In this document: positions 50,539 to 59,762 of the stretch, piece by piece
Layout of the letters: each line of letters opens with the position of its first letter
Position numbering within the stretch: the stretch's first letter is position 1
Translations under genes and position numbers: made by a program
Notes under the pieces: generated by a model
Seen by the model: the letters and a program-made list of their open reading frames with translations, nothing else
What the model was told of the DNA's origin: nothing
Databases searched by the model: none
Assembly (NCBI RefSeq): GCF_000518245.1
Contig: NZ_KI912403.1
Location: 320,600-384,599 of the forward strand
Direction: 5' to 3'
Source: Brachyspira alvinipulli ATCC 51933
GTDB taxonomy: Bacteria > Spirochaetota > Brachyspiria > Brachyspirales > Brachyspiraceae
DNA length: 64,000 bases

Positions 50539-50838
50539 ATGGAATTATTGGCTCATATTTTAGCAACTGAAACAGATGAGGAATTTATTAAAAAGCTGTT
50601 AAGCGAACTCTTTACTAAGGATGAGCAAGATATGATACAGCAAAGGCTCAGGATAGTCACCTTACTCAGGAGAAAAATGCCGCAATATGAAATAGCGAAA
50701 CATCTTAATGCAAGTCTTTGTTCTATAACAAGGGGTGCTAAAGAACTAAAAAAAGATGACAGTGCTTTAGCTATAATAGTAGACAAATATTTAATACATG
50801 ATAAAAACTTTCAAGAATCATTATCCAAATCACAGTAA
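50539..50838 (+). CDS. TrpR-like regulator (YerC/YecD type)
   Basis: A 99-residue all-helical protein with the Trp-repressor fold signature: LFTKDEQDMIQQRLRIVTLL, then MPQYEIAKHLNASLCSITRG, the helix-turn-helix. AAAGGAG lies before the ATG. The family includes TrpR and uncharacterised YerC proteins. No tryptophan genes occur nearby, so its target and ligand are unknown. Its last 9 bases overlap the convergent hemW gene. Confidence 0.82.
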   Translation: MELLAHILATETDEEFIKKLLSELFTKDEQDMIQQRLRIVTLLRRKMPQYEIAKHLNASLCSITRGAKELKKDDSALAIIVDKYLIHDKNFQESLSKSQ

Positions 50839-51957
50839 CAACAAACTAATCTCATCAATATAATTAAAATAATACTTTTTTATAGATAAATACTCATTGG
50901 ATATATTAAAATATTCATTGTTATTATTTACTATTTTTTGGTATTTTAAATAAAAGTTTTCATTAAACATGCAATTATATTTATTTATATTTATTCCTTT
51001 TACTGTTCTAAGTGAAAGGAATATAAATTCTTTTTTTCTAGTATCTTCATCTAAAAATTCTTTATCTTTTACTGGAAGTTTATAATTATATAAAAAATTA
51101 AAATAATCTTTAAGTATTTTAACATTTTCATATCTTGTATTATCATAACATCCAACAGCAGACACTCCCAAACCCAAATAATCTTTTAATAACCAATAAT
51201 TACTATTATGAATAGATTGAAAACCTATTAATGAAAAATTTGAAACCTCATATCTAATTAATCCCAAATTTTCCAATGTATCAGAAGCCTTTTTATAATA
51301 TATTACAGATTCTTCATCGCTTGGAAGTATATCCAACCATTTTTTTTTCAATGATTCTGTAAGTTCCAAATAATAAAGAGAGGCATGTTTTACTTTAGGA
51401 AGCAAGTCATAAGAGAATAATATATCATCTTTAATTTGATTTTCTGTATTAAGAGGCAATCCGCATATAAAATCAAGAGAAATATTTTTTAAAGATGATT
51501 TATTTATTAATCTAAGTGCATTTATAATATCTCTTTTTTCAGTATGCCTATTTATAATAGATAAGCTTTTTTCATTGAATGTTTGAATTCCAAATGAAAG
51601 CCTTATATTAGAAACCGATTCTAAAAAACTAATATATTCTTTGTTAATATCATTAATATTGCTCTCTATAGTTATTTCTTTAATATTTTTAATCCCGTTA
51701 TGACTATAAATTATATTTAATACATTATCCAATAAATATTTTAATAAATCAGCACCTAATACAGAAGGAGTCCCACCCCCCAAATATATAGTCTCAATTT
51801 TTTGATTATAATTTTTTATTCTCAATTTAAATTCTATAATCAATGCCTCTATATATTTTTTATATATATCTTCACTGTTCATGTTAACAATAGAATAGAA
51901 ATTACAATAGCTGCATTTATATGTACAAAAAGGAATATGTATATAAAGTCCCGACAT
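50830..51957 (-). CDS. hemW: Radical SAM protein HemW (heme chaperone-like)
   Basis: A 375-residue radical SAM enzyme with the cluster motif CTYKCSYCNFYS near the N terminus, preceded by SGLYIHIPF. It also has YLGGGTPSVL, RLSFGIQTFNEKSL, SLDFICGLPLNTE and YEVSNFS, all typical of HemW (formerly annotated as coproporphyrinogen oxidase HemN). HemW is thought to be a heme chaperone and not an oxidase. It lacks the extra residues of true HemN. It lies 4 bp downstream of the sigma factor gene and is likely co-transcribed. Confidence 0.88.
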   Translation of the reverse strand: MSGLYIHIPFCTYKCSYCNFYSIVNMNSEDIYKKYIEALIIEFKLRIKNYNQKIETIYLGGGTPSVLGADLLKYLLDNVLNIIYSHNGIKNIKEITIESNINDINKEYISFLESVSNIRLSFGIQTFNEKSLSIINRHTEKRDIINALRLINKSSLKNISLDFICGLPLNTENQIKDDILFSYDLLPKVKHASLYYLELTESLKKKWLDILPSDEESVIYYKKASDTLENLGLIRYEVSNFSLIGFQSIHNSNYWLLKDYLGLGVSAVGCYDNTRYENVKILKDYFNFLYNYKLPVKDKEFLDEDTRKKEFIFLSLRTVKGININKYNCMFNENFYLKYQKIVNNNNEYFNISNEYLSIKKYYFNYIDEISLLLL

Positions 51958-51961
51958 TAAA

Positions 51962-52816
51962 CTATTTTAAGAAATCTTTTAAAGAATTATATTTTTGAGA
52001 ATGCATCTTTCTTAACGCCTTTTTTTCTATCTGCCTAATTCTCTCTTTTGTAAATGAAAACATTTCACCTACTTCTTTTAAAGTTTTTCTTTCTTGATCT
52101 ATACCATATCTAGCATTTATTATCTGTTTTTCTATATCTGAAAGATTTTCAATAGCAACTTTTAATTCTTCCATAAGCTCTTTGTTTGTGATTATATCTT
52201 CTACAGTTTTGGAAGTTTTATCTTCTATTGTATCTATAAGTCTATCTTTCATGCCTTCATAATTATATTCGCCTTCGAGAGAAATATGATCTGTACTCAT
52301 AGACATAATATGAAGTATATCATTAGGATCTTTTTTTAAGATTGCCGCAAGCTCATTAACATCAGGAGTATATCCGCTTTTATAATAATATTGATGTACA
52401 GCACGCTCTAAATCAACCAAATCCATAGCTTTATTTAAAGGAAATCTTATTAATCTTGATTTTTCATTTATAGCTCTTAATATACTTTGTCTAATCCAAT
52501 ATACTGCATAAGAAATAAAATGATATCCTTTATCTGGGTCAAATCTGTCTGCTGCTATAATAAGACCTAAATTACCTTCGCTAATTAAATCCTCTAATAA
52601 AAGCCCGCTGTTTTTATATTGTTTAGCAATAGTTATAACAAATCTTAAATTACTTCTAATAAGTTTTGAACGAGCTTCAGCATCACCTTCTTTAAGTCTT
52701 TTTGTTAATTCTATTTCCTCTTCACGAGTTAACAATTTTTCTTTTTTGGCATCTGCAAAATATAAGGATATATTATTTTGTTCCTCTGTATTTGATTTTA
52801 AACTGCTATCTGCCAT
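51962..52816 (-). CDS. RNA polymerase sigma factor, sigma-70 family
   Basis: A 284-residue sigma factor without region 1.1. Region 1.2/2 starts ISLYFADAKKEKLLTREEEI. Regions 2.3-2.4 read GYHFISYAVYWIRQSILRAI and 4.2 reads LKEVGEMFSFTKERIRQIEK with a basic helix. The size and order fit a group 2 or RpoS/SigA-like factor able to use -10/-35 promoters of the TTGACA/TATAAT type seen in this window. It is not clear whether it is the main sigma factor. It lies downstream of the receiver-LpxC gene and 4 bp before hemW. Confidence 0.9.
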   Translation of the reverse strand: MADSSLKSNTEEQNNISLYFADAKKEKLLTREEEIELTKRLKEGDAEARSKLIRSNLRFVITIAKQYKNSGLLLEDLISEGNLGLIIAADRFDPDKGYHFISYAVYWIRQSILRAINEKSRLIRFPLNKAMDLVDLERAVHQYYYKSGYTPDVNELAAILKKDPNDILHIMSMSTDHISLEGEYNYEGMKDRLIDTIEDKTSKTVEDIITNKELMEELKVAIENLSDIEKQIINARYGIDQERKTLKEVGEMFSFTKERIRQIEKKALRKMHSQKYNSLKDFLK

Positions 52817-52898: not shown

Positions 52899-54191
52899 TT
52901 ATAAATATCTATTGGCAAGATCATGCACAACAGAATGATTAAATGAATGAGACGATTTATTAGCTATTATTTTAGCTTTTATTGGTCTCGATAATATATA
53001 TAAATCTCCTATTATGTCTAAGATTTTATGTCTTACAAACTCATTATCAAAATGTAATTTAGTATTTATTACTTTTCCATCACATAATAATATATGACTT
53101 CCTATCATTCCGCTGCCTGCCATGCCCATCTTTTGAGCATAATCTATGTTATCTATGGTATTAAATGATCTAGCCCTTCCAACTTCTTCCATAAATTGAT
53201 CAAAGTTTTCAAATTTATATGTATATTGCTGAACTCCTATAGAACCAGCAAAATCAATACGCAAAGTTACTTCAAGTCCATCATAAGGAGAAAGTATAAT
53301 ATAAGTCTCATTATCATTAACATTACCATAAGTTAAAGTTTCATCTATAACTATTGGTTCTATATAATCATCCTGTTCAACAAAACCAGCATCTTTTAAA
53401 GCTTCGCAAAAAACTAAGGCAGAACCATCAACATTAGGCACTTCACCATCACATTTAACCAACAAATTTGTTATTCCCATCATATGTAATGCAGCCAAAA
53501 AATGCTCAGTTGTTTTTATATATCTATTTCTAGATATCAAAGCAGTAGAATTAACCGCCCCTGATTTATCTTTTGATAAAATATTATCATGAGAAAGTTT
53601 TATATGTGTATTGGTATTGATATCAACAAATACTATACCAGTATTTACCTCTGCTGGAACAAGAGTTAAAGCAGTTTTTCTTCCTTCCATTAAAGCAAAA
53701 CCACTTACAACAACACTTTTAGCTATTGTTCTTTGAGGTACTTTATATCTACATTCATGCTTTTTATTTGAACAAACATTATTATTACTTTCTTCAGAAA
53801 CATTAATATTATTATTTTCTTTAAAAACCTCATCACAGCTGGATAATAATTTTGAAATACTGATAGGTTTTTCTAAAAAATCATAAGCTCCTATTTTTGT
53901 AGCTCTAACTGCTGTTTCGACACCAGCATGTCCACTCATCATAATAACTGTTATAGATGGAAATTTTTCTTTAATATTAGATAATATATCGAGACCATCA
54001 ACATCAGGAAGCCATACATCTAAAAATACTAAATTTATATTAGTATCATCTAAAATTTTTAATGCTTCATTATAGTTTTTAGCTATATATACATCATAAC
54101 CTTCATCTTCTAAAATACTTTGACAAGTACTAAGAATATCCTCTTCATCATCTATAATTAATATATTCTGTTTAGTTTTTACATTCTGCAT
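52899..54191 (-). CDS. Response regulator receiver fused to LpxC deacetylase
   Basis: A 430-residue two-part protein. Residues 8-120 are a full receiver domain: acidic DDEED, phospho-acceptor Asp58 in VFLDVWLPD, Ser86 in MMSGHAG and Lys108 in LEKPIS. After a linker of about 30 Asn/Ser-rich residues comes LpxC (about 150-430). Active-site residues correspond to E. coli E78/H79 (E229/H230 in TTEHFLAAL), H238/D242 (H388/D392 in VRHKILDIIGDL) and H265 (H415 in SSHSFNH). LpxC commits lipid A synthesis. Phosphorylation may tune the enzyme. The start was chosen for the GGAAGA site upstream. No kinase is adjacent. Confidence 0.9.
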   Translation of the reverse strand: MQNVKTKQNILIIDDEEDILSTCQSILEDEGYDVYIAKNYNEALKILDDTNINLVFLDVWLPDVDGLDILSNIKEKFPSITVIMMSGHAGVETAVRATKIGAYDFLEKPISISKLLSSCDEVFKENNNINVSEESNNNVCSNKKHECRYKVPQRTIAKSVVVSGFALMEGRKTALTLVPAEVNTGIVFVDINTNTHIKLSHDNILSKDKSGAVNSTALISRNRYIKTTEHFLAALHMMGITNLLVKCDGEVPNVDGSALVFCEALKDAGFVEQDDYIEPIVIDETLTYGNVNDNETYIILSPYDGLEVTLRIDFAGSIGVQQYTYKFENFDQFMEEVGRARSFNTIDNIDYAQKMGMAGSGMIGSHILLCDGKVINTKLHFDNEFVRHKILDIIGDLYILSRPIKAKIIANKSSHSFNHSVVHDLANRYL

Positions 54192-59054: not shown

Positions 59055-59762
59055 TTATTTTAATTTTTCCATATATTTATCATATATAAATTTACATATT
59101 AATCTTGAATTAAATGCTGATAAATCTGCGTATTCTCCAGTATATTCATTTCCTACTTTTTCAAGTATATTAATAGAAAAAGTAATCTTATAAGAACCTA
59201 TGGACATTGATGCGTTTTTAATTACATGTCCAATCTCAATATCTGCCTCTTGAGGCGGCATAATAAACTTTAATCCTATAGGCGACATTTCAACTATCAT
59301 ACCATGAAGTATTTGTCTTACTCCATCATGTCTGAATACAATCTTAAAATTATCTAAATCATTTATAACTATATGCTTTAATTTCTTCGGCTTTATATTA
59401 GCTTTCTCTAATAGCATATTAAACCTATTCAAAAAATCTTTTTCATTAAATGGTTTTAATAAAAATCCTGAAACCCCTATACGCATCATATTAGAAATAA
59501 ATTCTTTACTAGGCTCTAGAACATGTATTATTACATGGACACCATCATACCTATCATCCACATAAATTTTTTCAAGTATATCTAATATTTCTGCATCATC
59601 CTCATTAGCCTCTATAATAGCTACAGGAAATGGTCTTTTTCCAAACATTGGAAGAATATTTTTTTTATCTTTTACTTCAACTACCTCATAACCTGCTGTT
59701 ATTAAAATACTGATAAAACTATCTCTTATCTGTGAAGATGAATCATAAACTAATACTCTCAT
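59055..59762 (-). CDS. Atypical receiver domain with PilZ-like domain
   Basis: A 235-residue protein. Residues 1-120 have a receiver fold (MRVLVYDSSSQIRDSF, LLKPF with the Lys), but the usual Asp pair is reduced to Asp7 and the phosphorylated Asp is replaced by Glu51 (VAIIEANED). It is therefore unlikely to be phosphorylated and may be locked in an active-like state. Residues 140-230 look like a PilZ domain (FRHDGVRQILHGMIVEMSPI), although the RxxxR motif for c-di-GMP is not clear. It is likely co-transcribed with thiD downstream. Possible role in motility or c-di-GMP output. Confidence 0.7.
   Translation of the reverse strand: MRVLVYDSSSQIRDSFISILITAGYEVVEVKDKKNILPMFGKRPFPVAIIEANEDDAEILDILEKIYVDDRYDGVHVIIHVLEPSKEFISNMMRIGVSGFLLKPFNEKDFLNRFNMLLEKANIKPKKLKHIVINDLDNFKIVFRHDGVRQILHGMIVEMSPIGLKFIMPPQEADIEIGHVIKNASMSIGSYKITFSINILEKVGNEYTGEYADLSAFNSRLICKFIYDKYMEKLK

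Follow-up and report, generated by a model that had tools for sequence, protein, structure and literature searches.

In the 64,000-nucleotide stretch of the Brachyspira alvinipulli ATCC 51933 genome analysed here (contig NZ_KI912403.1, positions 320,600 to 384,599; hereafter the window), one gene encodes a protein, REC-LpxC, in which an intact NtrX-type receiver (REC) domain is fused to the genome's sole LpxC. This enzyme, at which lipid A synthesis is controlled, commits the cell to endotoxin production and is also an antibiotic target. The fusion retains the functional residues of both halves, is maintained by purifying selection, belongs to a single clade of fused proteins and originated from the NtrX/NtrY family. 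These features suggest a so far undescribed direct control of the main lipid of the outer membrane. REC-LpxC would be a response regulator with an enzyme as its output, whose activity is probably controlled directly through phosphorylation by a kinase, most likely the orphan histidine kinase L134.

Response regulators with enzymatic output are already known, the new part being LpxC as the output and the receiver covalently attached to it. No description of such a fusion, or of LpxC as a response-regulator output, was found in the open literature, including census papers and LpxC reviews, and neither "receiver" nor "response regulator" occurs in two recent reviews of LpxC control, although public databases may display the architecture automatically. 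A 2026 review (PMC13333357) names the control of LpxC activity, in distinction to that of LpxC amount, as an emerging question and describes the allosteric mechanism as unknown. A receiver placed covalently on LpxC would be a natural allosteric switch, open to toggling in vitro, which makes allosteric control directly testable.

An intact receiver and an intact LpxC in one reading frame

The original prediction proposed, giving no strand, that LpxC is fused here to an intact phosphorylation domain. It was verified that the fusion is real: the open reading frame (ORF) runs uninterrupted on the minus strand from 54191 to 52899 (430 aa), with an ATG start and a GGAAGA motif 9 nt upstream. The stretch of aa 100-167 offers no in-frame ATG, GTG or TTG, which makes separate translation of the LpxC half unlikely. 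Additionally, fused frames of 427-452 aa were found in 25 of 26 Brachyspira genomes, the 26th being interrupted by a contig end; the receiver was confirmed from sequence in 15 spirochaete genomes, and the homologue of an uncultured Brachyspira (L077) shares 87% identity across the entire protein. Within the genus, the ratio of nonsynonymous to synonymous substitution rates (dN/dS) was about 0.07-0.24 for the receiver, 0.04-0.09 for LpxC and 0.3-1.3 for the linker, being near neutral in several pairs for the latter. Both domains are under purifying selection, and the linker is much less constrained. An assembly or gene-call artefact was ruled out by the presence of the fusion throughout the genus and in several phyla, by the selection on both domains and by the lack of an internal start.

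Regarding the receiver, Pfam Response_reg (PF00072) matched aa 10-117, and the predicted residues Asp58, Ser86 and Lys108 are all present, together with the acid pair D14/D15. These five functional residues are kept in 42 of 42 fused proteins from several phyla (Ser86 once replaced by Thr), and a pseudo-receiver was ruled out because all of them are intact. The best response-regulator match was the NtrX model NF051870, which covers aa 8-122 alone and scores 115 bits against a cut-off of 600; the protein as a whole is not an NtrX, a family defined by a receiver, a sigma-54-type AAA+ domain and a Fis helix-turn-helix.

The LpxC half shows 30-33% identity to solved LpxCs; PF03331 matched aa 153-426 with 232 bits against a cut-off of 27, and the TIGR00325 equivalog cut-off was passed (193.1 versus 187.25 bits). 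In the alignment, E229, H230, H388, K389, D392, D396 and H415 correspond to E. coli E78, H79, H238, K239, D242, D246 and H265, so that the zinc ligands (H79, H238 and D242) and E78, K239, D246 and H265 are all accounted for, including the five residues originally named (E229, H230, H388, D392 and H415). The catalytic residues are invariant in 41 of 41 fused proteins covering them. REC-LpxC thus shares with the LpxC family the whole fold, the zinc ligands and the catalytic residues, and differs from it by the N-terminal receiver and linker, by forming its own clade and by lacking a degron-bearing C-terminal tail. In E. coli, the FtsH degron lies in the C-terminal tail of LpxC; such a tail is absent here, the protein ending about five residues beyond its alignment with E. 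coli-type chains. LapB was not found in the genome by its zinc-ribbon marker, whose single match is RadA-like.

The Brachyspirales proteins further differ from the family by Met168 at the position of E. coli His19, presumably the envA1 site, and by Ser342 at that of Thr191, the Thr/Ser exchange being conservative. The His19 and Thr191 equivalents are common in the LpxC family, and among the remaining fused proteins 27 have His and Thr there, while Leu occupies the His19 position in L074 and L079. Such clade-specific substitutions would be expected if the Brachyspira LpxC half had drifted to another deacetylation, or if the fusion had lost its lipid A function, and a canonical LpxC accompanies the fused protein of the nearest relatives outside the phylum, L074 and L079. 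However, a genome search revealed no second LpxC in B. alvinipulli, LpxB is present, the zinc and catalytic residues and the equivalog score are retained, and Brachyspira hyodysenteriae possesses lipooligosaccharide and lpxA, lpxB and lpxD (PMC2650404, PMC3087551), which makes this drift very improbable.

The view that LpxC is normally a single-domain enzyme controlled by proteolysis is a description of E. coli; LpxC-FabZ fusions (PMC3087551), transcriptional control by NtrYX or DVU2934 and allosteric control, with LapB inhibiting and MurA stimulating LpxC, have also been described (PMC12444477, PMC3333781, PMC13333357). LpxC-FabZ, found in Bacteroidetes, Chlorobi and Verrucomicrobia, likewise joins LpxC covalently to a second domain, but this domain is a metabolic enzyme located C-terminally rather than a receiver (PMC3087551). 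The window protein is not of this type, since its match to the FabZ-fusion model NF009667 spans the LpxC part alone (172 versus a cut-off of 465).

AlphaFold2 (AF2) predicted two confident domains (mean predicted local distance difference test score, pLDDT, of 90) with a disordered joint, the pLDDT falling below 50 at aa 134-145. The relative position of the two domains is not fixed in the model, because of this disordered stretch and a predicted template modelling score (pTM) of 0.70. Across two-domain homologues the linker varies in sequence and in length (27-57 aa).

Table 1. Features of the REC-LpxC gene and its neighbour, in window coordinates
Feature	Position	Strand	Basis
REC-LpxC fusion gene, 430 aa + stop, sole LpxC gene of the genome	52899..54191	(-)	ORF, Pfam, genome search
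Receiver (REC), aa 9-120, NtrX type	53832..54167	(-)	PF00072 1.5e-29; NF051870; REC tree
Predicted phospho-acceptor Asp58 codon	54018..54020	(-)	Invariant, 42/42 fused proteins
Ser86 codon (conserved Thr/Ser of receiver)	53934..53936	(-)	S in 41/42, T in 1/42
Lys108 codon of receiver	53868..53870	(-)	Invariant, 42/42
Linker, aa 121-150: end of extended alpha5 helix, then disordered stretch	53742..53831	(-)	AF2, dN/dS
LpxC deacetylase domain, aa 151-430	52902..53741	(-)	PF03331 1.1e-68; TIGR00325; Foldseek to PDB LpxC, best E 5.3e-30
Glu229-His230 codons (E. coli E78, H79)	53502..53507	(-)	Alignment; invariant
His388-Lys389 to Asp392 codons (E. coli H238, K239, D242)	53016..53030	(-)	Alignment; invariant
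His415 codon (E. coli H265)	52947..52949	(-)	Alignment; invariant
Sigma-70 family factor, 284 aa, 82 bp downstream, same direction	51962..52816	(-)	Order kept in Brachyspira loci examined

Distribution of the fusion and its origin from an NtrX regulator

Named genomes were scanned using LpxC domains taken from six fused proteins, and the architecture of the matches was then checked. ORFs combining REC and LpxC were identified in metagenome-assembled genomes (MAGs) and genomes labelled Acidobacteriota (Holophagae, Thermoanaerobaculia and Terriglobia), in Deltaproteobacteria/Thermodesulfobacteriota, including Desulfopila and Desulfomonile, and in Nitrospinota and Nitrospirae/Thermodesulfovibrionia. 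Among spirochaetes, all intact Brachyspira genomes carry the fused frame, as do two other genera of the family and two genomes from the wider order. The original framing of the architecture survey around spirochaetes proved too narrow: a spirochaete-only trait is ruled out by the fused members of the other phyla, and most spirochaete LpxCs are unfused and fall outside the fused clade. Genomes of one spirochaete family (f31) have an additional LpxC-like gene that is divergent and matches weakly, with 40-68 bits (G175:C30, G198:C122, G186:C51, G137:C28 and G192:C9); these genes possibly encode a paralogous deacetylase.

In the phylum of the acidobacterium L052, full-length matches were detected in 9 of 297 sampled genomes; in one of them (G692:C530), the REC-LpxC gene is interrupted by a single in-frame TAA, which may reflect decay or an error in sequencing. 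In the phylum of Desulfopila, 66 of 297 sampled genomes (about 22%) matched at E 1e-120, 53 of them with REC-LpxC and 13 with frames of 630-820 aa, the expected long form, of which L058 is the one verified. Of the 20 donor genomes, 16 have no LpxC match besides the fused protein. A phylogeny of 125 LpxC domains placed all 40 fused domains together in a single clade (Shimodaira-Hasegawa-like approximate likelihood ratio test, SH-aLRT, 100; stem 0.49), and outside their phylum the nearest to Brachyspirales were L074, from a Nitrospirae MAG, and L079, from Desulfopila. A single origin with later transfer into the ancestor of Brachyspirales is the simplest reading of this topology.

Regarding the source of the receiver, fused receivers fell together with those of NtrX, apart from the NtrC-type and other ones (SH-aLRT 91), in a tree of few columns that is poorly resolved inside. 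In addition, six fused proteins have about 700 aa, and Pfam assigned REC, sigma-54 AAA and LpxC domains to L058, L060 and L072, and a Fis helix besides REC, sigma-54-type AAA+ and LpxC to L056. The latter protein spans nearly the whole NtrX model with its aa 24-440 (247 bits, below the cut-off) before continuing into LpxC. The GAFTGA loop, which touches sigma-54, is kept by 10 of the 11 NtrX proteins that stand separately; all six long forms lack it, and a role of the long forms as sigma-54 transcription factors is unlikely for this reason. REC-LpxC proteins share with NtrX/NtrY systems the receiver type, the AAA+ and Fis parts of some members and the adjacent or orphan NtrY-like kinases; they differ in that the AAA+ of the long forms has no GAFTGA and that the Brachyspira protein has neither AAA+ nor helix-turn-helix, with an enzyme as output instead of DNA binding.

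In the unfused loci L091, L103, L112 and L125, the gene order is lpxC, NtrY-like kinase and NtrX-like regulator. Because unfused lpxC adjoins ntrY-ntrX elsewhere, the most likely event behind the fusion is the joining of a regulator with the product of its target gene. The likely path would have started from an NtrX-type regulator gene beside lpxC in an lpxC-ntrY-ntrX locus, continued with fusion of the whole regulator to LpxC, and ended with decay of the sigma-54 AAA+ and Fis parts and their loss in most lineages, including Brachyspira. The intermediates (separate genes, whole regulator with enzyme, receiver with enzyme) allow the evolution of a signalling enzyme to be traced. Two-component systems acting on lpxC are known from Desulfovibrio (DVU2934/DVU2931) and from alphaproteobacterial NtrYX, where, unlike here, separate proteins act on transcription (PMC3333781, PMC7240162; reviewed in PMC12444477). 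In fact, lpxC is the single target of DVU2934 (PMC3333781), and deletion of ntrYX in R. sphaeroides raised lpxC mRNA 8.8-fold and lipopolysaccharide about two-fold (PMC7240162).

The candidate kinase and the proposed control of LpxC activity

The B. alvinipulli genome holds 12 HATPase-type matches, including homologues of CheA, gyrase, MutL and HtpG. Kinases were named by tree and gene neighbourhood: L132 adjoins an OmpR-type regulator, the NtrB-like L133 adjoins the only sigma-54 regulator (activator) of the genome, and L134 (G000:C17:18666-20438) is an orphan of NtrY type, with 591 aa, HAMP, HisKA and HATPase domains and the H-box AHEIKNPLMPI. No other NtrX-type receiver was found in this genome, and L134 is likely the kinase of REC-LpxC. 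Outside the spirochaetes, the fused gene is immediately preceded by that of an NtrY-like histidine kinase in 8 of 26 loci, and the kinases adjoining fused and unfused lpxC form a single clade (support 97). The search for a cognate kinase suggested by the original prediction therefore yielded a candidate, albeit one whose gene is not adjacent to the fused gene in the spirochaetes examined.

A 121-aa pseudo-receiver gene (G000:C17:20443-20808, minus strand; L194:144-509) converges on the L134 gene, with a weak PF00072 match (4.2e-4) and the phospho-Asp replaced by Asn. Its homologues stand beside the kinase in L164-L170, and the gene is conserved among the Brachyspira genomes examined as well as in another genus of the family; its product is possibly a kinase modulator.

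According to the proposed mechanism, the membrane NtrY-like kinase, here L134, would phosphorylate Asp58, which would alter the receiver surface through dimerisation or docking; this change, passed via the flexible linker, would alter the activity of the attached LpxC, and lipid A output would thereby be set without transcription. Functional residues that stay invariant in both domains beside a variable linker are the pattern that would result if phosphorylation mattered and the linker served just as a tether. In CheB, RpfG, PleD and PorX, which are response regulators with enzymatic output, activity is expected to follow receiver phosphorylation. REC-LpxC resembles them in having a receiver linked to an enzyme that is expected to behave likewise, and differs in its output, a soluble deacetylase of lipid A biosynthesis. 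By analogy with CheB, it may be guessed with low confidence that the resting receiver inhibits LpxC and that phosphorylation relieves this inhibition.

Since the Brachyspira protein has no DNA-binding part, its output must be either LpxC itself or something to which LpxC is brought. As an alternative to direct control of activity, the receiver would govern the location or lifetime of LpxC rather than its turnover number, as a phosphorylation-dependent tether to the membrane kinase or another partner, or through exposure to a protease. The disordered linker without a predicted fixed interface and the missing tail that holds the FtsH degron in E. coli are compatible with this arrangement, and other bacteria control LpxC by abundance and membrane recruitment (PMC12444477). 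However, no degradation tag or adaptor was found, and a mere tether needs no phospho-site preserved in 42 of 42 proteins, although phosphorylation-dependent docking would; we consider this arrangement unlikely, yet worth keeping in view. It is far less probable that the receiver is mainly a phosphate sink, or feeds back on the kinase or on other regulators, with LpxC constitutively active. The kinase is indeed encoded far from lpxC, and the pseudo-receiver gene beside it points to other receiver-like partners, but the lack of a further NtrX-type receiver and the covalent linkage, stable across phyla in a single fused clade, weigh against this reading.

The phosphodonor could also be a different kinase or acetyl phosphate, an NtrY-like kinase adjoining the fused gene in none of the spirochaetes examined and further histidine kinases (L132, L135 and L139) being available. 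The chance of this is rather small, considering that L132 and L133 each adjoin a regulator of their own, and that an NtrY-type kinase is the expected match of an NtrX-type receiver and adjoins the fused gene in the eight loci mentioned above. Direct control of LpxC activity by two-component signalling, as the original prediction suggested, remains the best-supported reading, with a plausible kinase and evolutionary route now in place, while the phosphorylation and its effect on activity, the partnership with L134 and the sign of the control are what we infer.

Several points weigh against this reading. Although the partnership is favoured by a contrast among spirochaetes, where the NtrY-like kinase adjoins a REC+AAA regulator in 9 of the 12 fusion-free genomes (the exceptions, with neither fusion nor neighbouring regulator, being G042, G052 and G084) and in 0 of 13 fusion-bearing ones (Fisher probability by hand about 1e-4), this contrast is phylogenetically non-independent, and few independent events lie behind it because 11 of the 13 belong to one order. 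The support for grouping L134 with the NtrY type is modest (82, histidine kinase tree), it cannot be told apart from the NtrB-like kinase by BLAST alone, and the proposed partnership is based on its orphan status and type. Additionally, AF2 predicted no fixed interface between receiver and LpxC, leaving their relative position free; catalysis of the Brachyspirales enzyme may be altered by Met at His19 and Ser at Thr191; and 3 of the 20 donor genomes also keep a canonical LpxC, one more having a partial second match.

Neighbouring genes

The order REC-lpxC, sigma-70 factor (Table 1) and hemW (50830-51957, minus strand) is conserved in Brachyspira loci. Elsewhere in the window, the minus strand encodes at 59055-59762 a protein of 235 aa that combines a weak receiver (PF00072 2e-7) with an unassigned C-terminal part, and a GAF-like sensor histidine kinase (L139) is encoded on the plus strand at about 62-64 kb.
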